Below are positions 2,804-33,625 of a stretch of 33,625 bases of DNA, piece after piece (the first letter of the stretch is position 1; every line of letters begins with the position of its first letter). The notes under the pieces were generated by a model. The model saw only the letters and a program-made list of their open reading frames with translations, had not been told where the DNA came from and ran no database searches. The stretch is taken from positions 1-33,625 of the IMG/VR virus record IMGVR_UViG_3300006308_000068; one strand, 5' to 3'. The stretch is from a virus. A program made the translations under genes and the position numbers.

Positions 2804-3582
2804 TGAAACAAGAAGCGTTGCAATGGTTTATTGAATTGCAAAAATCAATTTGTCAGACTATTGAAGAGTTAGAAACTAAAGCAAAATTTAAAGATAACAA
2901 ATGGAAATTTGGTAACTTTAAAACAATTAAAGGTGACGTGATTGAAAAGGGAGGTGTCACCTTTAGTAATGTTGTAGGTAAGTTTCCAAAAGACTTCGCA
3001 AAAGAAATCCCTGGTACAAAACATAGTAGAAACTTCTGGTCAACAGGAGTATCAGTAGTATTACATCCAAAGAATCCTAAAGTACCTGCAATACATTTTA
3101 ATACAAGATATATTGAAACAGAAAAAAGTTGGTTTGGTGGTGGTACAGATATGACACCGTGTTTGAAAGATGATGTAGAAAGAAATTTATGGCATTACAG
3201 ATTAAAACAATTATGTGATAGACATAATAAACTTTATTACAAAACATATAAGAAATGGTGTGATGAGTATTTTTATTTACCCCATAGAGAAGAAACAAGA
3301 GGTGTAGGTGGTATCTTCTTTGATTACAAATATGGTAAGAAACATTTTGAATTTGTTAAAGATGTTGGTAGAACCTTTTGTCAATTACTTAAAGAGATTA
3401 TAACACCAAAGATGAATTTAAAATATACGAAGCAAGATAAGTATACACAACTATTAAAACGTGGACGATACGTTGAATTTAATTTAATGTATGATAGAGG
3501 AACAAAGTTTGGATTGAGAAGTGGAGGAAATCCTGAAGCAATATTAATGTCTATGCCACCAGGTGCGATATGGGAAGAGTAA
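2803..3582 (+). CDS. hemF: oxygen-dependent coproporphyrinogen III oxidase
   Basis: Predicted to oxidatively decarboxylate two propionates of coproporphyrinogen III to give protoporphyrinogen IX, using O2, in the cytoplasm. The family pattern is strong across 259 residues: VVLHPKNPKVPAIHFNTRY (about 85-103), SWFGGGTDMTP (109-119), KKWCDEYFYLPHREETRGVGGIFFD (150-174), then RGRYVEFNLMYDRGTKFGL (220-238) and GGNPEAILMSMPP (241-253). It is shorter than typical HemF (about 300 residues). It stops at MPPGAIWEE, just where cellular enzymes continue through a final segment of about 25-40 residues. It is tightly packed: the start overlaps the 2OG oxygenase stop and the end overlaps the next gene by 13 bases. 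The family assignment is secure; activity without the normal C-terminus is untested. Confidence 0.93.
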   Translation: MKQEALQWFIELQKSICQTIEELETKAKFKDNKWKFGNFKTIKGDVIEKGGVTFSNVVGKFPKDFAKEIPGTKHSRNFWSTGVSVVLHPKNPKVPAIHFNTRYIETEKSWFGGGTDMTPCLKDDVERNLWHYRLKQLCDRHNKLYYKTYKKWCDEYFYLPHREETRGVGGIFFDYKYGKKHFEFVKDVGRTFCQLLKEIITPKMNLKYTKQDKYTQLLKRGRYVEFNLMYDRGTKFGLRSGGNPEAILMSMPPGAIWEE

Positions 3583-4403
3583 TATCTTGTTCAGCAAGAA
3601 AACAATGGGACGTACATATCAAAGCATTTTTAGATAGTCATATACGCCACGCAGAAGAACATTCTAATTTTTCATTTGGCTATGATGATATAGATTCTGT
3701 TTTTGGACAAACGGAAGAACATTGTCCTTTATACGGTGGACGTCCTGCAGAAACTCCAGAAATGTTTGAGAAAGATATTGAATGGATTTATGATAAGGGT
3801 ATTGGTCTTAAACTTACTTTACAGAATAAATTTATAACAGATGATAAGTATAAAGAAAGTAAACCGTTTTTAAAAGAATATCATAGAAAAGGAAATGCAG
3901 TTATTACAGCAACTGATAAGTTGGCTGAATATATTAGAAATGATTTTCCTGATTATAAAATAGAAGCAAGTTGTATACAAGATATTACAGACAATGAACA
4001 TTATGAAAAGAAAGTTGCAACTGGATTATATGATACGATTGTTTTACCTATTCATTGTAATGATGATTTAAAGTTTATAGAAAGTATTAAAAGAAAAGAT
4101 TTGTTAAGATTGTTTATGAACATAGAGTGTTCTTATAATTGTCCTAGTAAAGTTTGTTATGGTACAACTTCTAAAATCAATCGTGAAGAAAAGAGAAAGT
4201 TTATGTGTAGTTTAATTCATTTAGGTATGGAACGTTCTTTTTATAATGATGATATAAATTGGAGTGAATTTTATTTTGATTTACCTATGTATGAGAAAAT
4301 GGGTATATCTAAATTTAAATTAGTTCCACCAAAAGAAGACCAACAACGAACAGCATTAATGTATAAAAGAAACCATCAATGGTTAGCAAAGTCAGCAAAA
4401 TGA
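3570..4403 (+). CDS. unrecognised Cys-cluster protein between hemF and hemB
   Basis: A 277-residue soluble protein I cannot name with confidence. Repeated blocks such as GIGLKLTLQN (78-86), AVITATDKLAEYIRNDFP (110-127), IEASCIQDI (131-139), YDTIVLPIHCNDDL (154-167) and LLRLFMNIECSYNCP (178-192) read like strand-helix repeats of a TIM-type barrel. The Cys set C187-x3-C191-x4-C196, plus C213, could hold an Fe-S cluster. That layout recalls peptidase-U32/UbiV-like barrels only in style; I claim no homology. It overlaps hemF by 13 bases and hemB by 4 (ATGA), so it is translated as part of the tetrapyrrole block. A role in a missing tetrapyrrole or redox step is inference from context. Confidence 0.75.
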   Translation: MGRVISCSARKQWDVHIKAFLDSHIRHAEEHSNFSFGYDDIDSVFGQTEEHCPLYGGRPAETPEMFEKDIEWIYDKGIGLKLTLQNKFITDDKYKESKPFLKEYHRKGNAVITATDKLAEYIRNDFPDYKIEASCIQDITDNEHYEKKVATGLYDTIVLPIHCNDDLKFIESIKRKDLLRLFMNIECSYNCPSKVCYGTTSKINREEKRKFMCSLIHLGMERSFYNDDINWSEFYFDLPMYEKMGISKFKLVPPKEDQQRTALMYKRNHQWLAKSAK

Positions 4404-5191
4404 GATTAATACAACCGATATTCGCCAGTAATACTACAAGAGAAACTGGACTAGGAGAAGATAATAAAATCTTTAATGCAAAAGAAGTTAAAGAACGTGT
4501 TAAGAAAGATATTGATTTAGGAGTAAAAGAATTTCTTTTATTTTACATACCTGAATTAAAGTTATTTAACTTTGAGGAAGTTTGTTTAACTGCCGCTAGT
4601 CTTTCAACGTTACCTATAAAATTAAATGTTGATGTATGTTTATGTTCTTACACGCAAGACGGACATTGTTGTGTAACAGGAGACCAAGAAAAAACAGATG
4701 ACCTATTACTACAATCAGCTGTAGATATTTACACAGCGTCAGGTGCTACAGTAGCGCCAAGTGATTGTCAAGACAATACAGTTAAGAATATTAAATCAAT
4801 TAATAATGGTCAGATACCTGTAATGAGTTATAGTACAAAATTTCGTTCAACATTTTATAGAGGTTGGCGTGATGTAATGAAGATACCAAAAGGTATTCAT
4901 AGACCCTATCAATTAGATGTTAGCGATAGACATAAGGCAATTATAAGGTCTATAAAATATTCAGATGATGGCGCAGATGAATTAATGGTAAAACCTGGTA
5001 TGACAAGTTTAGACTTAATTGAACCAATAAGAAATATTACAAAGAAACCTGTAGGTGTATATCAAACATCTGGAGAATGGTTAGGTATTGGTGCGCCTGG
5101 TAGTTTAGAAGAAACATATCACATATTCAAAAGAGCAGGTGCTTGTTATATGATAACTTATGGTGCAAGACGATTATGTCGCTCACAATAG
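4400..5191 (+). CDS. hemB: porphobilinogen synthase (delta-aminolevulinate dehydratase)
   Basis: Condenses two 5-aminolevulinate molecules to porphobilinogen. With the ATGA-overlap start at 4400 (263 residues) the protein begins MRLIQPIFAS, as expected for the family; an upstream in-frame ATG at 4379 is less likely. Key features are present: the zinc-type Cys triad in DVCLCSYTQDGHC (C80, C82, C90), VAPSDCQDN (118-126), MSYSTKF with active-site K147, ELMVKPG with Schiff-base K198, and YQTSGEW (221-227). It is shorter than cellular HemB (about 320-340 residues), mainly in the N-terminal arm that normally builds the octamer, so its oligomer may differ. The end overlaps hemC by 16 bases. Confidence 0.92.
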   Translation: MRLIQPIFASNTTRETGLGEDNKIFNAKEVKERVKKDIDLGVKEFLLFYIPELKLFNFEEVCLTAASLSTLPIKLNVDVCLCSYTQDGHCCVTGDQEKTDDLLLQSAVDIYTASGATVAPSDCQDNTVKNIKSINNGQIPVMSYSTKFRSTFYRGWRDVMKIPKGIHRPYQLDVSDRHKAIIRSIKYSDDGADELMVKPGMTSLDLIEPIRNITKKPVGVYQTSGEWLGIGAPGSLEETYHIFKRAGACYMITYGARRLCRSQ

Positions 5192-24774: not shown

Positions 24775-25941
24775 ATGGCTATACGAGCCCCTTTATATTA
24801 TGACGCTGGAGATTTAAAAGAAATGAACTCTGGTGAGGTTGACCAAATAATAGCACAAGTAATTTATCAATATTCATTAGCACCATCTGTAGCATTATCA
24901 AGAGTAAATTCTGGTGGTAGTGTAGGAACAATAACAGATACAAGACAACAAGCTGGTGCTATGTCAACTCATAACTCATCTTTTCCTAGTGAGGCAACAA
25001 CAGCAGAACCTTCAACAGTAACTATTTCTTATGACACTATAGACCAAACAGTTACCTCTGGTTCAGCTCCAGCTGATACAGGAAAAACTTGGCCTTGTTA
25101 TAGAACAGCAACTAATGATATTCAACCAATGACGTTAGATGATGTTAAAGATACATTTATACATCCTGCTATTGATTTATTGACAGCGGCGACTACAACG
25201 CAAGAACAAGCAGGAACATATCATATTAGTAATTTAAATGTTGTTGCAGGTTCTACTTTAGTAGACCCAACACCAACTTTTGTAAATACTCAAGCAGATA
25301 CAACTGCTTATACAGGTGACGCTGCTGGGATAGGACAAAACTTTGATAAATCTTATTCTAGTCTTGGTGCAAGTGGCACAAATACAATAACTGTAAATAA
25401 TGTAACTGATTTGGAAGTTGGTATGACAATTTTTAGACAAGACAACTCAACTCTTCCAGATAAATCTACAAGTCCAACTACTATAACTGAAATTGTTGGC
25501 ACTACATTAACATTAAGTCAAAATTTTACAAGTCAAGCGTCAGGCACATATACAATTGGTGCTGAGGCAATAGACCAACCTACAACAATGCAGGAATATT
25601 TTTTGCATAGAGTAGATGGTGTTGATAATACTTTAACAAAAGTTCCAGTTTTTGTAAGAGCAAGTGATAATGATATACAAGAATATACAGAAGTTGCTTT
25701 TGAAACATTATTAGCAGACCATATTAAATATACTGCCGCTGCTTCAGTTGACGGTTATAAAATAGAATATAGTTTTATAACTGGAGTAAATAGAGGTTCT
25801 GGTATGGCAGATACAATACTGACAGGTTCAGGAGATTATCAAACACACCAAGTTGATGGTGATGATTATAGAGCGCAAGAGTTCCCAAATGGCTCACCAA
25901 CAACAGCAAATACTTGGTATTTGAAGATAAATAAGAGTTAA
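24775..25941 (+). CDS. virion structural protein (tail region)
   Basis: A 388-residue protein beginning MAIRAPLYYDAGDLKEMNSGEVDQIIAQVIYQYSLAPSVALS, a pattern I associate with a structural protein at the end of the tail module in marine T4-like phages. SGGSVGTITDTRQQAGA (about 45-61) and the WPCYRTATNDIQPMTLDDVKDTFIHPAIDLL block (about 104-135) continue the family pattern. A Thr/Asn-rich region (180-260) contains VNNVTDLEVGMTIF, a common beta motif. AGGAG lies upstream of the ATG. It is the last late gene before the sigma70-driven unit. Confidence 0.65.
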   Translation: MAIRAPLYYDAGDLKEMNSGEVDQIIAQVIYQYSLAPSVALSRVNSGGSVGTITDTRQQAGAMSTHNSSFPSEATTAEPSTVTISYDTIDQTVTSGSAPADTGKTWPCYRTATNDIQPMTLDDVKDTFIHPAIDLLTAATTTQEQAGTYHISNLNVVAGSTLVDPTPTFVNTQADTTAYTGDAAGIGQNFDKSYSSLGASGTNTITVNNVTDLEVGMTIFRQDNSTLPDKSTSPTTITEIVGTTLTLSQNFTSQASGTYTIGAEAIDQPTTMQEYFLHRVDGVDNTLTKVPVFVRASDNDIQEYTEVAFETLLADHIKYTAAASVDGYKIEYSFITGVNRGSGMADTILTGSGDYQTHQVDGDDYRAQEFPNGSPTTANTWYLKINKS

Positions 25942-25980: not shown

Positions 25981-26733
25981 ATGGATATATTATTAACTGG
26001 TGGTAGTGGCTTTGTAGGAAAAAATCTAACAACTTGGTTAGAAAAAAAATACTTTAACGTAATTAGTTTAGACCGTAGTACAGGTAAAGAATTACTTACC
26101 TGTGATTTAAAATATAATGTTGATTGTGTTATACATCTAGCAGGTCTATCTGGTGTCAGACAAAGTTTTGAAAATCCTACAGACTATTGGAAACAAAACG
26201 TTATCGTAAGTCAAAGAATATTTGACCATTTTAAAGATACAAGAATTTTGTATGCAAGTTCAAGTACTGCATATGAACCCTGGAGAAATCCTTATGCAAT
26301 GAGTAAGTATAGTATGGAACAAATTGCTCCTGCAAATAGTTTAGGTATGAGATTTACTACTGTATATGGACCTGGTGCAAGAGATACTATGTTGATACCA
26401 AGAATATTAAGAAATGATGTACCGTATGTTAATACAAATCATAGTAGAGATTTTATACACGTATATGATATTTGTTCAGCTATTGAATCTATATTAAGAC
26501 AAAAATCAATCACAGCATTTCCAGAAAAGACAGGTGTAATAGATATAGGTACAGGCACTACACATAAGTTAACTGATATAATGGACTACTTTGGAATTAC
26601 TACTGAAAAAAAAGTTGGTGGAGATAATGAAAGACTTGATAACAAAGCAAACATAGACGCAATGACAAGTTATGGTTGGGAACCTCAATACGAACTAAAG
26701 AAGTATATAGAAAAAAATAGGAGAACAAATTAA
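25981..26733 (+). CDS. NAD-dependent epimerase/dehydratase (extended SDR)
   Basis: A 250-residue short-chain dehydrogenase of the extended, nucleotide-sugar type. The N-terminal Rossmann signature TGGSGFVG (6-13) fixes the start at 25981. HLAGLSG (52-58), YASSSTAYEP (91-100) and the catalytic pair Y105-x3-K109 (YAMSK) are present, followed by RFTTVYGPGARDTMLIPR and SRDFIHVYDI, the substrate-domain pattern of UDP/GDP-sugar epimerases and 4,6-dehydratases. It is shorter than typical members (about 310), lacking some loops. The exact sugar cannot be told. It is first in the sigma70-driven unit. Confidence 0.88.
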   Translation: MDILLTGGSGFVGKNLTTWLEKKYFNVISLDRSTGKELLTCDLKYNVDCVIHLAGLSGVRQSFENPTDYWKQNVIVSQRIFDHFKDTRILYASSSTAYEPWRNPYAMSKYSMEQIAPANSLGMRFTTVYGPGARDTMLIPRILRNDVPYVNTNHSRDFIHVYDICSAIESILRQKSITAFPEKTGVIDIGTGTTHKLTDIMDYFGITTEKKVGGDNERLDNKANIDAMTSYGWEPQYELKKYIEKNRRTN

Positions 26734-27203
26734 TGATATCAAAAGAAAATTATATAATAGCATATTTCATAGACAATGCAAGAAAAAATATTGAGATTTT
26801 ATTAAAAGGTGATAAAAAAGTTTATTCACATATAATGGAATATGATACCAAGCATCCAGATTGCCAAGAGTTGTTAAAGGTATGTACTTTAGACCAACTT
26901 CACGAAAATACACATACAAGGTTGCAAGAACAAAAAAGAGAATTTGAAGCAACGGCAATGGGAATTGCTAAAAAAAGTGGAATATTATTTGATGAAAAAA
27001 AAGTAGGTACAAAATTTTATCCTGTACTTGTTAAAGCAATCTTTAATGATGTAGAAAATGAAGACCATTTATTTGCTTTAAAACTAGCATTGTTTGAAGT
27101 AGAAAAAATTAGAAACTCAAAAGATAATGAAAGTAAAAAGAAATTAAGACAAGCTAAAAATAAAATTGAGGTGTTAAAGATTGCTTTTGATTTAATGAGT
27201 TAA
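26733..27203 (+). CDS. hypothetical helical protein
   Basis: A 156-residue mostly helical, charged protein without a recognised domain. The N-terminus (ISKENYIIAYFIDNARKNIEILLKGD) may be a helix-strand start. The C-terminal 45 residues (ALFEVEKIRNSKDNESKKKLRQAKNKIEVLKIAF) look like a coiled coil. The start overlaps the epimerase stop by one base (TAATG), and the next gene follows after one base, so it is part of the operon. Its function is unknown. Confidence 0.6.
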   Translation: MISKENYIIAYFIDNARKNIEILLKGDKKVYSHIMEYDTKHPDCQELLKVCTLDQLHENTHTRLQEQKREFEATAMGIAKKSGILFDEKKVGTKFYPVLVKAIFNDVENEDHLFALKLALFEVEKIRNSKDNESKKKLRQAKNKIEVLKIAFDLMS

Positions 27204-27204
27204 T

Positions 27205-28086
27205 ATGAATATAGTATGTACTGGTAAACCAGGCGATGGATTATTACGTTATAGTTATGAACATTGTTGTTATTTAAATTCTGTTGGAATTAAAAGTCAA
27301 GTAGTTATTATACCCAATCCTAAACACACCAAAGAAGATTATATAAAAGCAATTAAAGACCAATATACGACTTATGAAAATATTGTCTTTAACCATTACA
27401 CACCAGCTACAGATGAATTAACTTTAGTACTAGGTAGAAGTATGATAACTTTAGCTTACCTAGACAAACACAACTATACTAAAGACCAATTATTAACTTT
27501 ACATTTACTATTCAGTAATAATGTAATAGCACTTTATTCAGAAAATCATCCTAAAGAATATCCTTTAGCATTAAAATATTTTAAAACTAAAAAGGTTTAT
27601 GACTTATGCGACCACGAAGTCTATCCTAATGGTGTTGGTACACAATATGAAAAGATAATTAACTTTGAAGTTTATAAACCTGTGAAAGATGATATTCAAT
27701 TTAGATATTTATTTTTAGGAACAAACGAAATATATTATAAGGAACTTGAAAAAGTAATTGACAAGTATCCTGACCACGGCATTATAACTTATAATGAGAA
27801 GTGGATTAATCCTAAATTAAATAATCTATTTGCCCCTATATCAAATATACTAGGCAAATTTGAAACCTATGTATATACAAAACCTAATTTTGATCCTGCA
27901 CCTAGACTCTTTGTAGAGTTTAAGTGGTTAGGTAAAAAGATAGAGTATTTGAGAGATAAGAATATAAAAGATGGTGGTATGGTATATTGGAACAGACCTG
28001 TTCCCACAAAACAGATATATTCTGCCAATATAAATATTCTTATTGAATTGAAAAGGGCAATAAATGAGAAGTATAAAATTTTTTAA
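27205..28086 (+). CDS. glycosyltransferase-like protein
   Basis: A 293-residue protein. The N-terminus MNIVCTGKPGDGLLRYSYEHCCYLNSVG resembles the first Rossmann unit of GT-B glycosyltransferases, which often have a Gly-rich loop there. The C-terminal block APRLFVEFKWLGKKIEYL...DGGMVYWNR (about 230-266) recalls the sugar-nucleotide-contacting Glu/aromatic segment in small phage GT-like proteins. Neither is diagnostic. Context (SDR, aminotransferase, carbamoyltransferase) supports sugar transfer. Its last 23 bases overlap the next gene. Confidence 0.5.
   Translation: MNIVCTGKPGDGLLRYSYEHCCYLNSVGIKSQVVIIPNPKHTKEDYIKAIKDQYTTYENIVFNHYTPATDELTLVLGRSMITLAYLDKHNYTKDQLLTLHLLFSNNVIALYSENHPKEYPLALKYFKTKKVYDLCDHEVYPNGVGTQYEKIINFEVYKPVKDDIQFRYLFLGTNEIYYKELEKVIDKYPDHGIITYNEKWINPKLNNLFAPISNILGKFETYVYTKPNFDPAPRLFVEFKWLGKKIEYLRDKNIKDGGMVYWNRPVPTKQIYSANINILIELKRAINEKYKIF
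28029..28036 (+). promoter_or_regulatory. candidate internal late promoter box (TATAAATA)
   Basis: An exact late consensus inside the end of the glycosyltransferase-like gene, 27 bases before the radical SAM start at 28064. The spacing suits a late promoter for that gene, but a single intragenic 8-mer in AT-rich sequence can be coincidence. Confidence 0.3.
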
Positions 28087-28720
28087 TAGAACAATAGGTC
28101 TTAATGCAGACATTACTTTTAGATGTCCTTTAGAATGTCCTTCTTGTCAAAGACAATTTGCATTTAAAGAACGAGGTAAACCTGTTCACGGTCACGATAT
28201 ATCTTTAGACGATATAAAAAAACTTGCAAAACATTTTAAAGGTATTGATTTTTGTGGTCAACTATCCGATCCTGTCCATCATCCAAAATTTATAGAAATT
28301 TTAAAATACCTTTATGATAATAAGGTATATGTTAGTGTTCATAATGCTTCTTCAGCAAAACCAAAGTCTTGGTATATTAAAGCATTTAAAGCACATCCTA
28401 AAGCTGAATGGATATTTGGTATAGATGGACTACCTGAACAAAGTCACCTTTATAGAAAAAACCAAAATGGAGTAAAATTATATGATATAATGTTGGAAGC
28501 TAAAAAATATATCAAAGGTAAAATATATTGGCAGTATATTATTTTTAACTACAATGAAGATAATATAGAAGAAGCAAAAGAGATGGCAAAGAGAGATGGT
28601 ATATCTTTGTTTATAGTACAATCATCAAGGTGGCGTAAAAACGACCCGCTTATACCTTCACATAAGTATAGGTTAAATAATAAACTATACGGCGCTCCAA
28701 GGAAGTTTATAAATGTTTAG
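28064..28720 (+). CDS. radical SAM protein (core domain)
   Basis: A 218-residue radical S-adenosylmethionine enzyme core. The cluster motif C21-x3-C25-x2-C28 (RCPLECPSC) binds the [4Fe-4S] used to make the 5'-deoxyadenosyl radical. The barrel continues with IDFCGQLSDPVHHPKFIEIL (an equivalent of the GGEP strand, here CGQLSDP) and WIFGIDGLPEQSHLYR, a standard beta-5 pattern. It ends at about 218 residues without the C-terminal auxiliary-cluster domain, which appears to be supplied by the next gene, overlapping by 8 bases. The substrate is unknown; peptide or sugar modification are the usual choices. Confidence 0.85.
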   Translation: MRSIKFFNRTIGLNADITFRCPLECPSCQRQFAFKERGKPVHGHDISLDDIKKLAKHFKGIDFCGQLSDPVHHPKFIEILKYLYDNKVYVSVHNASSAKPKSWYIKAFKAHPKAEWIFGIDGLPEQSHLYRKNQNGVKLYDIMLEAKKYIKGKIYWQYIIFNYNEDNIEEAKEMAKRDGISLFIVQSSRWRKNDPLIPSHKYRLNNKLYGAPRKFINV

Positions 28721-29057
28721 ACCAAAATGTTTAGTAGGTAAAATACAACTAGCATTAACAAATAGAGGACATTTAATACCTTGTTGTTGGTGTGATGAAG
28801 AGTGGAGTTTAAAAACTCCTGCATTTCAAAAACTATTAAAAGTTAGTAAAATTAGTGAGGTTGAGGATATTGAGGAAATATTATATTCAAAAGAATGGAT
28901 GGAGTTTGAAGAAAAATTAAGAACAGAAAAAAATATACCTAAAATTTGTATTCAGCATTGTATGATTGAAGAAGAAGGAAAATATGCTGAAGATAGTAGA
29001 AAAATTGAAACAATTATAAATGAACAAGGCGTACAAGTTAAAAAAAATATAGTATGA
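28713..29057 (+). CDS. Cys-rich, SPASM-like auxiliary partner of the radical SAM protein
   Basis: A 114-residue protein. C6, the cluster GHLIPCCWCDEEW (C24, C25, C27) and KICIQHC (C79-x3-C83) match the C-terminal SPASM/twitch-type domain that normally follows a radical SAM core in one polypeptide and carries an auxiliary Fe-S cluster. Here it is a separate gene in another frame, starting immediately after an in-frame TAA and overlapping the upstream stop by 8 bases, consistent with translational coupling. The stop overlaps the next ATG (ATGA). Confidence 0.65.
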   Translation: MFRPKCLVGKIQLALTNRGHLIPCCWCDEEWSLKTPAFQKLLKVSKISEVEDIEEILYSKEWMEFEEKLRTEKNIPKICIQHCMIEEEGKYAEDSRKIETIINEQGVQVKKNIV

Positions 29058-29779
29058 AAAAAATATTATTAGCTAGTGGTTGTAGTTTTACAGATACAGG
29101 ATGGATAAGTGATTTTCACGATATAGGTCCTAACGCTTGGTCAATGTGGCCCGAGCTATTAGCAAAAAAATTAGATATGCAATGTATAAACGTTGCCTAT
29201 AGTGGAGCAGGTAATGAATATATTTACTCTTCTTTATTGGACGCAATAATGAGTATTCTTCCAACTTCATCTATAGGATTAGTAATTCCTGGTTGGTCAC
29301 AGGTTTCAAGAAGAGATTGGAAAATAAAAAAGAAATGGAAAAATAATTCTGAATATGCAGGTGACCCTAGCACATTTTGGAATGATATGAAAGCTGATAT
29401 AGATAAATCTTTAAGATATTTTTATAGTCTTCAGGAGATATGTAAATCTAAAAAGATACATTATAAAGCGGTTCAAATGCTTCATCCATTTCGTGGTTGG
29501 TCTTGGAGTAAAGAAGAACAAAGACATAAAGAAAATGAACGATTTTATAATGTTGATTTTTTAAAACGTATTCATAATAGTATTTATTTTGATAAGATAG
29601 ATGATAGTTTTATAGGTTGGCCAGGTTCACCAGAATTAGGTGGGTTTAGTATTAAGAGTGATATACTAAAAGGGTATGAAAAAGAAAGTTTGCCTTGGGC
29701 AGTTTCAGAAAGAGATAATCACCCTAATGCAAAAGGGCAAGAAAAAATAGCGGAGTTTTTATATGACAGGTTGGGATAG
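29054..29779 (+). CDS. SGNH/GDSL-family hydrolase-like protein
   Basis: A 241-residue protein with SGNH-hydrolase blocks: KKILLASGCSFTD (block I, nucleophile Ser11 in GCSFTD), VAYSGAGNEYI (48-58, the Gly/Asn oxyanion-hole block) and RDNHPNAKGQEKIAEFL (about 220-236, with the catalytic D/H near the C-terminus). The family hydrolyses esters, including O-acetyl groups on glycans. In this operon a sugar O-acyl esterase or transferase role is a fair inference. Trp-rich segments in the middle (WKIKKKWKNN, FRGWSWSKEEQ) are not part of the core motifs. It overlaps the next gene by 17 bases. Confidence 0.8.
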   Translation: MKKILLASGCSFTDTGWISDFHDIGPNAWSMWPELLAKKLDMQCINVAYSGAGNEYIYSSLLDAIMSILPTSSIGLVIPGWSQVSRRDWKIKKKWKNNSEYAGDPSTFWNDMKADIDKSLRYFYSLQEICKSKKIHYKAVQMLHPFRGWSWSKEEQRHKENERFYNVDFLKRIHNSIYFDKIDDSFIGWPGSPELGGFSIKSDILKGYEKESLPWAVSERDNHPNAKGQEKIAEFLYDRLG

Positions 29780-31037
29780 AGAATATTTAGCAAACAAAGA
29801 AGCGTATTTAAAAATCTTTGATAGTGCTATGCAACAAGAACAGGAACAAAATGTAGAGTTCCTTGAAAAGAGTCTTGCTAAAATAACAGGTAGAAAGTAT
29901 GCTGTTGCGTGTAATAGTGGAACAGACGCTTTACATTTTGCTTTAATTAGTTTAGGTGTTAATTCTGGTTATGATGTATTGACAACTCAATTTTCTTGGA
30001 TAGCAACAGCGTCTTGTATATCTATGGTAGGTGCAAGACCTGTGTTTTGTGAACCTAATATTTTAACTTATCATATGGATTTAGATAGTATTAAAAGAAT
30101 GTGGACGCCAAGAGTAAAGGCGATAGTGTATCCACATCTATTTGGTAGTATGTCTGATACAAAAGAGATATTAGATTTTTGTAAAGAAAAGAATATTGCA
30201 TTTATAGAAGACGCTGCTCAATCATTAGGTGCTAGTTTAAATGATGTTAAGGCAGGTTCAATAGGAGATGTTAGTTGTTTAAGTTTCAATGCAAATAAAG
30301 TTGTTGCTGGTATCGCTGGTGGTGGGGCAGTCTTAACAGATGATAAAGACAAAGCAGAATTATTTAAGAAGTTAAGAAGACACGGCAACAATGAAGTGTT
30401 AGGTCGTAACTCAAAAATGTTAATGCTTAATGCTTGTTTTATTAACTTTAGATTAAAGAAGATGAACGAATGGATATCTAAAAGACAAGAGATAGCAAAA
30501 CAATATGATGAACAATTAAAAGATTATGTGACCATACAACCATCAACAAATGGTCTTAATCATAACTATCACAAATATGTTATTAGATTACAAAATAAAA
30601 AAGTAAGAGATAAGGTTAAAGATATGCTAAATGCAAAAGTACATTATGATAAACCTTTGTCTGAAAGTCCTATGTATAAAAACATTAATCATAGAAAAGA
30701 TAAACAGTTTATTAGTAAAATTATTTGTGATACTATATTGACATTACCTATACACCCTTATATGAAACAAGAGGAGATTGATGAAGTTATTAATAAAATT
30801 TTACTTTGTTTAGGATATGAAGAGAATATACTTGTAAAAAATATGAAAAGAGTATTAGGTGATGATGTATTTGACAAGAGTTTAATTAATGAAACAACTG
30901 AACCTATTTACGATTTTATTGTAGAGAAGACCTATCAAACACCAGAGTATATTGAAGACGTTGAGTTTAAAGACAAAAGAAAGTTGAAGATAGCATTTAA
31001 TAAATTTTATGAAAACCTTACAAGAGATACAAAATAA
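29763..31037 (+). CDS. DegT/DnrJ/EryC1-type PLP aminotransferase with C-terminal extension
   Basis: A 424-residue sugar aminotransferase. The PLP fold is clear: CNSGTDALHFALISLGV (50-66), QFSWIATASCISMVGARPVFCE (76-97), EDAAQSLGA (149-157, PLP-contacting Asp150), and SFNANKVVAGIAGGGAVLT (174-192) with Schiff-base K179. Family members transfer an amino group from glutamate to a keto-sugar nucleotide. The C-terminal about 74 residues after LLCLGYEENI are additional to the usual length (about 370) and look helical (DFIVEKTYQTPEYIEDVEF, KIAFNKFYENL). The start at 29763 overlaps the SGNH gene. Confidence 0.9.
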   Translation: MTGWDREYLANKEAYLKIFDSAMQQEQEQNVEFLEKSLAKITGRKYAVACNSGTDALHFALISLGVNSGYDVLTTQFSWIATASCISMVGARPVFCEPNILTYHMDLDSIKRMWTPRVKAIVYPHLFGSMSDTKEILDFCKEKNIAFIEDAAQSLGASLNDVKAGSIGDVSCLSFNANKVVAGIAGGGAVLTDDKDKAELFKKLRRHGNNEVLGRNSKMLMLNACFINFRLKKMNEWISKRQEIAKQYDEQLKDYVTIQPSTNGLNHNYHKYVIRLQNKKVRDKVKDMLNAKVHYDKPLSESPMYKNINHRKDKQFISKIICDTILTLPIHPYMKQEEIDEVINKILLCLGYEENILVKNMKRVLGDDVFDKSLINETTEPIYDFIVEKTYQTPEYIEDVEFKDKRKLKIAFNKFYENLTRDTK

Positions 31038-31830
31038 TTATTTAGCGGTAGATTTCTTTCTATCAATGTCTTGTAATAAAGACTGCCACTATTGTACAAG
31101 TTATACTTTAGAAATGAGAAACTTGACAGTAGATATGGTCTTTTTGAAAAGCACTTTAGAAAAATTTAAAAACTATAAGATGAGAATATGTTTACTTGGT
31201 GGTGAACCTGGACTAATTAAAAATTTAGATAAAGTTATTGCAGAAATTAAAAAGTATCCTAACTTTGTTTGTTCAGTATTATCAAACTCGTTTGTTAGAA
31301 AGAGATATCCTGAAGTATTAGAAGATAAAGAAATACTGTATGTTGAACATAACATATTAGACTTCTATGAAAATGAAGTAAAGATGTTAGGTAACTTTGA
31401 TTTTGTACCTGAAAATGATATGAACAATTATAACGTAGTTGTAAAGACACCAAACTATTTTAAATATAAAGACAATCATAAAGAAGTAATAAAAAAGTTA
31501 GACCATAAAAATACTATGTGGAAAGCATTTAATGGCAGGTCACCAGAGTTTACAGATGTTATACAAGCGGATGAAATAGATAGAAAATTGTGTGCTTCTT
31601 TTCCAATGGTGCCTGTAATAAATTTTGAAACAAAAACTATAGTACATTGTAGTAAGAAGTTTGCTAATAATAAAGAGTTATCAAAAGAGTGGGACATTAC
31701 ACAGGAGAATGTTGATAAGATGATGAACTTTAGATTATTTAAATATGAAAACTATTGTAAGACTTGTACTGAATTTGTACCACCACAAGGACATTTTCCT
31801 ATGAGAAAATATGCGAAGGTATTAAAGTGA
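31009..31830 (+). CDS. radical SAM enzyme (second)
   Basis: A 273-residue radical SAM protein. The cluster motif is C22-x3-C26-x2-C29 (SCNKDCHYC), followed by CLLGGEPGL (61-69), the SAM-binding GGEP strand. The C-terminal part has C195, C214, C250 and C253 (NYCKTC), which may bind an auxiliary Fe-S cluster as in twitch/SPASM types. This is a complete single-gene counterpart to the split pair at 28064-29057. It overlaps the aminotransferase by 29 bases. The stop is part of GTGA, and the next gene starts on that GTG. Confidence 0.9.
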   Translation: MKTLQEIQNNYLAVDFFLSMSCNKDCHYCTSYTLEMRNLTVDMVFLKSTLEKFKNYKMRICLLGGEPGLIKNLDKVIAEIKKYPNFVCSVLSNSFVRKRYPEVLEDKEILYVEHNILDFYENEVKMLGNFDFVPENDMNNYNVVVKTPNYFKYKDNHKEVIKKLDHKNTMWKAFNGRSPEFTDVIQADEIDRKLCASFPMVPVINFETKTIVHCSKKFANNKELSKEWDITQENVDKMMNFRLFKYENYCKTCTEFVPPQGHFPMRKYAKVLK

Positions 31831-32492
31831 TTTATAAAAATAAGTTTGGTGAAGTTAATATACTAGATAAGGAATATTTCAATAATAAAATTGTAGGATT
31901 ATCTATGTCTGGTGGTGCAGATAGCACTTTGTTATGTTATCTATTAGCAAAAACTATACAAGAAGAAAAATTAAATGTTATTATACAACCCTATAATGGT
32001 TATGATATTGATGTATCTGGTGATTCTGAAAAACTACCAAACATTATAGATTATATACGAAACAAATTTACAGATGTTGAATTAAGATGGCCGATAGCAA
32101 CAGTTTTTAGAGGTAACTATAAAGATGTTAAAAATAATTATATAGGAACATTAAGAAAAAAACTTGAAGAATATAAAGTATATGATATTAGGATTATAGC
32201 AATTTCACAAGGTCCTCCTTTGGAAGCACAAACAAAGTTTAAAGCTAAATCTGGACAAAGTATAATGAGATTAAAGGGATATTATTTGTATGATGAAGTT
32301 ACTGATATTGGGGATAAGAATGCACCTTTTAAATATATTGATAAACGATTTATGATACAATGTTATAAAGATTTTAAAGTTGATGATTTATTAGAAATGA
32401 CTGAATCGTGTACTGAACTTGACAAATGTAAATCTGAAAAATGCTGGTGGTGTTTGGAAAGAGAATGGGCAATGAAAGAAGTAAATGACTAA
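31827..32492 (+). CDS. PP-loop ATPase (QueC/amidotransferase-like)
   Basis: A 221-residue adenylating enzyme of the PP-loop family. SMSGGADSTLLCYLL (26-40) is the pyrophosphate-binding SGGxDS motif. C195-x5-C201-x4-C206-x2-C209 near the C-terminus, followed by ERE, resembles the QueC zinc site. Members activate a carbonyl with ATP for amidation or thiolation. QueC makes preQ0; relatives such as WbpG-type enzymes amidate bacterial sugars. In this neighbourhood (SDR, DegT aminotransferase) a sugar amidotransferase role fits better, but neither is shown. It starts with GTG overlapping the upstream stop. The stop overlaps the next ORF by 8 bases. Confidence 0.8.
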   Translation: MIYKNKFGEVNILDKEYFNNKIVGLSMSGGADSTLLCYLLAKTIQEEKLNVIIQPYNGYDIDVSGDSEKLPNIIDYIRNKFTDVELRWPIATVFRGNYKDVKNNYIGTLRKKLEEYKVYDIRIIAISQGPPLEAQTKFKAKSGQSIMRLKGYYLYDEVTDIGDKNAPFKYIDKRFMIQCYKDFKVDDLLEMTESCTELDKCKSEKCWWCLEREWAMKEVND

Positions 32493-33625
32493 AATATTTG
32501 CAGTAGCATTAAACTTACACGACCACAATACCTATAATGGTGTATGGCATAATCAAAGAGAAAGATTTACTAGGTTTAAACATAATCTACCATATAAGGT
32601 TGACTCTTATGCTCATCAAGAACAATTAGATACAGCTGATTATAAATTAAATAATGAATTTGTTAAAGACTATTTTAGAAAACAAGAAGGCGCTGTGTTA
32701 GGTTTTTCAATGACAGTTGGTGGTGTTAGAATGTGTAAAGATATATTACCTAAAGAAGTATTAGATTATAAACCTACACACTTATGGGATCATTATCTTA
32801 AAGATGATATTTATTTTATAGACCATCATCAAGCACACGCTACTTATGCGTATATCAATTCTGGATTTGAAGAATCTGATATAGTTGCTATTGATGGTAT
32901 TGGTTATAAATTTAGATGTATCTTTATTGATAGAAATAAACAGATAGTAGATTTATCAAAAGAATTACCTATCGGTTGGTTATGGAATCAAATGTCTAAA
33001 CTAACTGGATTTGGTTCGTTAGGCGCAAGTAAATTAATGGGGTTAGTTGGTTATGGAAAATTTAATCAATATTATTATGATGTCTTTGAAACAATAATTG
33101 GTGGAGATGTAAGAGAGAAATCGTATAAAATTCACGAACTAATTAACGTTGAAGAATATGGTAAGTCAGATTTAGCATTTACATTACAACAATTTACAAA
33201 TGATAAAATTAAAGAACATATCTATCCATTAAAGACTTGCGACAATCTTTGTTTAGCGGGAGGAGTTATATACAATGGTTATTTAAATGAACAGTTTACA
33301 AAACATTATAAAAATGTTTATATACCACCTGCTGTTGGAGATGAAGGACAAGCATTAGGAGTTTATCAACACGCTGATTATGTATTGAATAAGAATAAAC
33401 ATAAGACAGAAACTTTTGCTGGAAGAGAACACGAATATATTGGCAATTCACTTGTTAATCTTCAAGATGTTGCTCAAGAAATTGCTAATGGAAAAATAGT
33501 AGGTTGGTATCAAGGCAAATCAGAAAGTGGTAATCGTGCATTAGGTAATAGATGTATATTAGCAGACCCTAGAAGAAAAGATATTAAACAAGTTATAAAT
33601 GATACTATTAAAGATAGAGAAGACT
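32485..33625 (+). CDS. carbamoyltransferase, NodU/CmcH type (3' truncated by window end)
   Basis: The ATG at 32485 opens a frame that is still open at the window end (380 codons). The YrdC/Kae1-like domain motifs are FIDHHQAHATYAYINSGF (111-128; H114, H115, H118), AIDGIG (135-140) and LGASKLMGLVGYGK (179-192). The C-terminal domain begins with NLCLAGGVIYN (254-264), PPAVGDEGQALGVY (281-294) and GWYQGKSESGNRALGNRCILADPR (340-363). Such enzymes use carbamoyl phosphate and ATP to carbamoylate sugars or antibiotics (NodU, CmcH), and homologues are frequent in marine T4-like phages. The acceptor is probably a product of this operon. Confidence 0.93.
   Translation, partial: MTKIFAVALNLHDHNTYNGVWHNQRERFTRFKHNLPYKVDSYAHQEQLDTADYKLNNEFVKDYFRKQEGAVLGFSMTVGGVRMCKDILPKEVLDYKPTHLWDHYLKDDIYFIDHHQAHATYAYINSGFEESDIVAIDGIGYKFRCIFIDRNKQIVDLSKELPIGWLWNQMSKLTGFGSLGASKLMGLVGYGKFNQYYYDVFETIIGGDVREKSYKIHELINVEEYGKSDLAFTLQQFTNDKIKEHIYPLKTCDNLCLAGGVIYNGYLNEQFTKHYKNVYIPPAVGDEGQALGVYQHADYVLNKNKHKTETFAGREHEYIGNSLVNLQDVAQEIANGKIVGWYQGKSESGNRALGNRCILADPRRKDIKQVINDTIKDRED

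Follow-up and report, generated by a model that had tools for sequence, protein, structure and literature searches.

A putative twitch-type radical SAM enzyme divided between two overlapping genes in a T4-like phage

Radical SAM enzymes of the twitch and SPASM types, among them BtrN, MoaA, SuiB, PqqE, SkfB and BlsE, combine a core bearing the CX3CX2C motif with a Cys-rich auxiliary domain, a full SPASM domain having about seven cysteines and two auxiliary clusters. The lipoyl synthase proteins LipS1 and LipS2 are both radical SAM proteins. In the sources cited here, SPASM and twitch domains are described as C-terminal extensions of the core (PMC9012708), the role of the auxiliary clusters – probed by cluster-deletion variants – is still debated (PMC10470005, PMC9012708), and in LipS1/LipS2 a radical SAM reaction is split over two gene products (PMC9585515). 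In published work on phages, the pelagimyophage host-recognition cluster holds radical SAM cassettes together with LPS-type genes (PMC7029224), and one T4-like marine genome has 12 radical SAM genes (PMC5332604).

The window, that is, the whole 33,625-base virus record analysed here, contains T4-type baseplate genes and, after them, an operon that includes genes of sugar type (epimerase, DegT aminotransferase and carbamoyltransferase), to which the two genes of interest belong (Table 1). The original prediction placed a radical SAM core ending at 28720 and a separate frame of Cys-rich, auxiliary-cluster type from 28713. Both were found: an ORF at 28064-28720 contains C21, C25 and C28, and a second ORF, at 28713-29057, encodes 114 aa. 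The three core cysteines are invariant in 36/36 cores; the window core matches Pfam PF04055 (Radical_SAM) at 22.4 bits, below the curated 29.5 (E 0.00015), and 8/8 close members of the core family match it at E 0.1 or better. That the product of this gene belongs to the radical SAM enzyme class is well supported.

Table 1. Features of the window around the core and SPASM/twitch-type genes (n/93: contigs with a split pair that hold a homologue).
Feature	Position	Strand	Remarks
Nucleotide-sugar epimerase/dehydratase gene	25981..26733	+	
Upstream neighbour	27205..28086	+	293 aa; homologue in 72/93 loci
Radical SAM core subunit gene	28064..28720	+	218 aa; CX3CX2C at C21/C25/C28; without auxiliary-cluster domain
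Shine-Dalgarno-like AAGGA	28699..28703	+	inside core gene; 9 nt before second ATG
Start/stop overlap, ATGTTTAG	28713..28720	+	8 nt; second gene in +1 frame
SPASM/twitch-type subunit gene	28713..29057	+	114 aa; Cys-rich; +1 frame relative to core
Downstream neighbour, SGNH/GDSL-like	29054..29779	+	Pfam match below cut-off; homologue in 64/93 loci
DegT/DnrJ-type aminotransferase	29763..31037	+	homologue in 70/93 loci
Second radical SAM gene of operon	31009..31830	+	homologue in 42/93 loci
Nol-like carbamoyltransferase gene	32485..33624	+	continues beyond window edge

The small protein scores 19.7 bits against Pfam PF13186 (SPASM), below the curated 21.5 (E 0.0011), and 8/8 close members of its family hit SPASM with E no higher than 0.1. 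Five cysteines (C6, C24, C25, C79 and C83) are invariant in 35/35 diverse SPASM rows. All of C24, C25, C27, C79 and C83, as first listed, are present in the protein, of which C27 proved not to be conserved, while the invariant C6 had been overlooked. Five invariant cysteines exceed the minimum of four fit for one auxiliary cluster and fall short of the number in a full SPASM domain; because five are conserved, the sequence suggests a single auxiliary cluster of twitch type as a better guess than a two-cluster SPASM domain. A model of the window protein (pLDDT 82.7) gave a sole PDB match at Z of at least 2, a weak one to residues 166-239 of BtrN, its auxiliary domain (Z 3.0, rmsd 2.6 over 70 residues).

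A tblastn search of 50,697 phage records found both halves in one record only, Pelagibacter phage Mosig EXVC030M, an isolate in which core and SPASM are two annotated genes, 62.8% and 57.4% identical to those of the window. In Mosig the core is annotated as a molybdenum cofactor enzyme and the SPASM gene as hypothetical, an example of how phage annotation under-calls these enzymes. On 102 viral contigs (window and Mosig included) there are 129 adjacent core-SPASM pairs: 124 are split and five, on three contigs, are fused. Comparison of homologues, which had been proposed as a check, thus gives mostly split rather than uniformly fused viral pairs. A further 19 cores, some of them cut by contig ends, lack a SPASM within 400 nt and were kept outside the 129 pairs. 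On contig L079 a divergent SPASM gene that the profile missed lies directly after the core. These phages have a second radical SAM family, a distant one, in which core and SPASM again have separate genes (L079:4814-5765; L140:2391-3597), and its SPASM in L079 passes the Pfam cut-off with 30.8 bits.

Because the pair recurs in an isolated phage (at 57% to 63% identity) and as 124 split viral pairs, it stands well above chance. It had been cautioned that the division might be a sequencing error at the junction, or a once-single gene broken by a frameshift and kept by coupling. Apart from that caution, an error or a recent pseudogene split has on its side a dN/dS of ~1.1 for the small gene in comparison with one near relative (L006, 90 codons), a noisy measure that gives 0.5 against L005 and 0.41 against Mosig; against it stand the identical split in the isolate and across many contigs, and the invariance of the cysteines. 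For the family this explanation is rejected, since the split is conserved in Mosig and the viral contigs, and we regard it as practically excluded; the same recurrence speaks against the broken gene held together by coupling.

Gene ends overlap commonly throughout the operon of the window, so the overlap and coupling of core and small gene are ordinary there. As originally described, a TAA (28710-28712) directly precedes the second ATG at 28713. Overlap is found in 119 of the 124 split pairs, the frame relation being +1 in 94 and -1 in 30. Grouped at 70% core identity, the pairs form 30 clusters, 25 of them overlapping, with 19 in +1 and 11 in -1; six hold both. At the junction Mosig has ATGGCTAA (an 8-nt overlap) and others have ATGA. 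These junction statistics cover the first 102 contigs (94 unique junctions by protein, 98 by DNA), with loci from later scans kept apart.

The overlap of the ORFs and the existence of single-chain relatives would be in keeping with programmed frameshifting that makes some joined core-SPASM protein, and a +1 slip at GTTTAG had been suggested. This motif is not conserved at the junctions, and both +1 and -1 relations occur among close relatives that share no common slip motif: because no single slip site serves both, a joined product is unlikely. Given also that the second gene has its own Shine-Dalgarno-like site and that the order of the genes is reversed in contig L121, programmed frameshifting was rejected and seems to us highly improbable.

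Anti-Shine-Dalgarno pairing averages -4.26 kcal/mol at second-gene starts (n=98) as against -1.22 at core-internal ATGs (n=1477), and pairing at -4 or below is found at 54/98 of the former and 169/1477 of the latter. By 70% clusters, pairing is stronger at the second start in 22/30 (p 0.0001), leaving eight of 30 in which the second start has no stronger site than internal ATGs. Since these eight deviate, and since the first ATGs of core ORFs average only -1.42, use of such sites is not universal. A start of its own for the second gene, and hence separate translation, is well supported: overlapping ends and Shine-Dalgarno sites in a compact operon bear on separate translation and not on association of the products.

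The scans for relatives kept the best 80 of 261, the best 80 of 197 (genome assemblies) and the best 80 of 274. A genome scan with eight close cores gave no relative, whereas a wider alignment did; when the fused pair was the only query, the scan chose poor patterns and returned five loci. Among the best 80 of the 197 genome-assembly relatives, 69/69 loci (L142-L210) have a core ORF that runs on into a tail of 80 aa or more, which carries a [PA]CC motif in 63/69, and nine (L131-L139) are split. The one of these nine that was examined, L133, carries homologues (by eye) of window genes 24775-25941, 25981-26733 and 26733-27203, and therefore looks like a phage contig. Going by these sequences, the split appears to be kept across many related viruses, most cellular relatives having one gene.

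Other arrangements are known from one contig each: in L121 the SPASM gene lies ahead of the core, as a separate overlapping gene; in L140 the fusion is reversed, SPASM then core in one chain; and in L133 SPASM is joined to a glycosyltransferase (phrog_1962, E 6.9e-16). L141, like L140 one of the 80 assembly loci, is of ambiguous form, with an in-frame stop close to a contig end. Two assemblies have a split pair followed directly by a fused radical SAM/SPASM gene (L144:1863-3748; L148:3033-4918), and just upstream of the split pair in L133 lies a 391-aa radical SAM protein with its Cys-rich region before the core (L133:2839-4014). Two tandem fused genes occupy an odd location amid T4-like packaging genes (L123:1431-3393), flanked by the Terminase DNA packaging enzyme (1031-1438) and the large terminase (3368-4993). 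On a tree of 77 chosen core rows (quick method, arbitrary root) the main clade of 53 rows comprises 48 split, two fused (L123) and three odd forms. This tree needs four changes between fused and split, of which starred branches force three, so the state has changed repeatedly.

Searching PDB sequences with the split proteins, the fused pair, the 293-aa neighbour and the L133 glycosyltransferase part turned up no relative of use in any case. A fused relative that occurs naturally, in L123, was folded with 88 rows; its model (pLDDT 84, pTM 0.79) has a partial TIM-barrel fold, and the weakest inner stretches (residues 200-209 and 218-227) coincide with the site of the split. Across both domains it aligns with SuiB (Z 18.0, rmsd 4.0, 268 residues), MoaA (16.9, 3.8, 250), BlsE (16.8, 4.0, 261), PqqE (16.6, 3.5, 239), SkfB (16.5, 3.8, 250), DesII (16.1, 4.5, 259) and BtrN (14.9, 3.4, 216).

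Core and SPASM distances are correlated (r 0.78) over 53 pairs, the number left from 120 once near-copies are removed. Tandem core-SPASM-core-SPASM arrays (for example L005:4001-6039 and L006:2579-4482) are present as exactly two pairs on 27 contigs, and 11 of these were compared: a core correlates with its own partner at r 0.938 and with the SPASM of the other copy at r 0.69, a comparison that controls for mere linkage. These values bear on whether the small protein is a structural part at all, or a dedicated ferredoxin-like electron carrier for the radical SAM enzyme or enzymes of the operon. A carrier would be consistent with a gene of its own, with the second radical SAM gene in the operon and with the L133 fusion, according to which SPASM need not be tied to its own core. 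It is harder to reconcile with the closer covariation of SPASM with its own core than with that of the neighbouring copy, and with the fusions of SPASM and core, both in the single-chain relatives and, with the order reversed, in L140; we consider it quite unlikely. The auxiliary region of the second radical SAM protein shows no kinship to the small-subunit SPASM family.

Conservation of the split, a start site for the second gene, reversed and fused variants and partner-specific covariation all point to an evolved two-subunit enzyme, one of the possibilities first raised. We put at about three in four the probability that each gene is translated on its own and that the products are the two subunits of a single twitch-type radical SAM enzyme from a T4-like phage.

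A survey of 93 contigs with a split pair (window and Mosig excluded) shows homologues of the neighbouring genes – the 293-aa protein, DegT, SGNH, second radical SAM and carbamoyltransferase genes – all on the same strand, the last of these in 13/93 loci. The most frequent neighbour is the 293-aa protein, which has a glycosyltransferase-like look, judged by eye only, and for which Pfam and PDB gave no match and PHROG none that convinces. The C-terminal ~100 aa of the DegT aminotransferase are apparently a separate ORF in relatives, again by eye (L020:5702-6010; L111:4403-4705; L079:2568-2972), and therefore gene joining and splitting seem common in this operon. A scan for promoters and terminators gave AT-rich noise only.

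As to subunit association, clusters, reaction and substrate, we infer the following. The core subunit would bind the SAM-cleaving [4Fe-4S] cluster and generate a 5'-deoxyadenosyl radical; the small subunit would dock at the place that the SPASM/twitch domain takes in single-chain enzymes and contribute one auxiliary [4Fe-4S] cluster, which may take up or relay an electron or hold the substrate. The substrate – the weakest step – would most likely be a sugar or amino sugar from the neighbouring genes, to be used in the surface glycan of the host or in a phage structure, an assignment that is tentative and that we rate somewhat short of an even bet. A two-subunit enzyme might instead act on a peptide or protein, in RiPP-like or tail-fibre modification: the peptide-modifying SuiB, SkfB and PqqE are among the structural neighbours of the fused relative, and the pair's genes come after tail genes. 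Yet the sugar enzymes BlsE, DesII and BtrN are likewise close in fold, the neighbours include an epimerase, a DegT aminotransferase and a carbamoyltransferase, and SPASM is fused to a glycosyltransferase in L133, so that a peptide substrate is unlikely.

A broader possibility, which we hold to be doubtful, is that radical SAM chemistry is modular in these phages: cores and auxiliary-cluster subunits would be separate parts, open to duplication, to changes of order, to renewed fusion and to tethering to further enzymes, the glycosyltransferase among them. If true, multi-enzyme complexes might diversify surface sugars during infection, and the role of the auxiliary cluster could be tested by omitting or swapping the subunit.

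How, then, does the pair compare with known systems? The accounts of pelagimyophage cassettes (PMC7029224) and of the T4-like marine genome (PMC5332604) concern phages and islands of this kind, sugar genes included, and the available parts of both make no mention of a split SPASM/twitch domain. No account of a split or stand-alone domain of this kind was recognised in the literature searched, a limited search that leaves absence from print unproven. NCBIfam NF033640 (twitch domain-containing radical SAM protein) is a single chain, and the window proteins score far below its 170-bit cut-off; the small subunit matches its N-terminal part weakly (E 0.008) and the cores of relatives with one chain match at later positions, and therefore the order twitch before core, as in L121 and L140, seems to be known. 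LipS1/LipS2 resemble the phage pair in that a radical SAM reaction is split over two gene products; in the phage pair, however, only one subunit carries a radical SAM core. With the twitch/SPASM enzymes the pair shares the CX3CX2C core and the Cys-rich auxiliary domain, but these are separate genes rather than a core with a C-terminal extension. What appears to be new here is a conserved two-gene form of the twitch-type radical SAM enzyme, itself a known class: a natural enzyme with its auxiliary domain as a separate subunit would make omission, titration and partner-swap tests possible.
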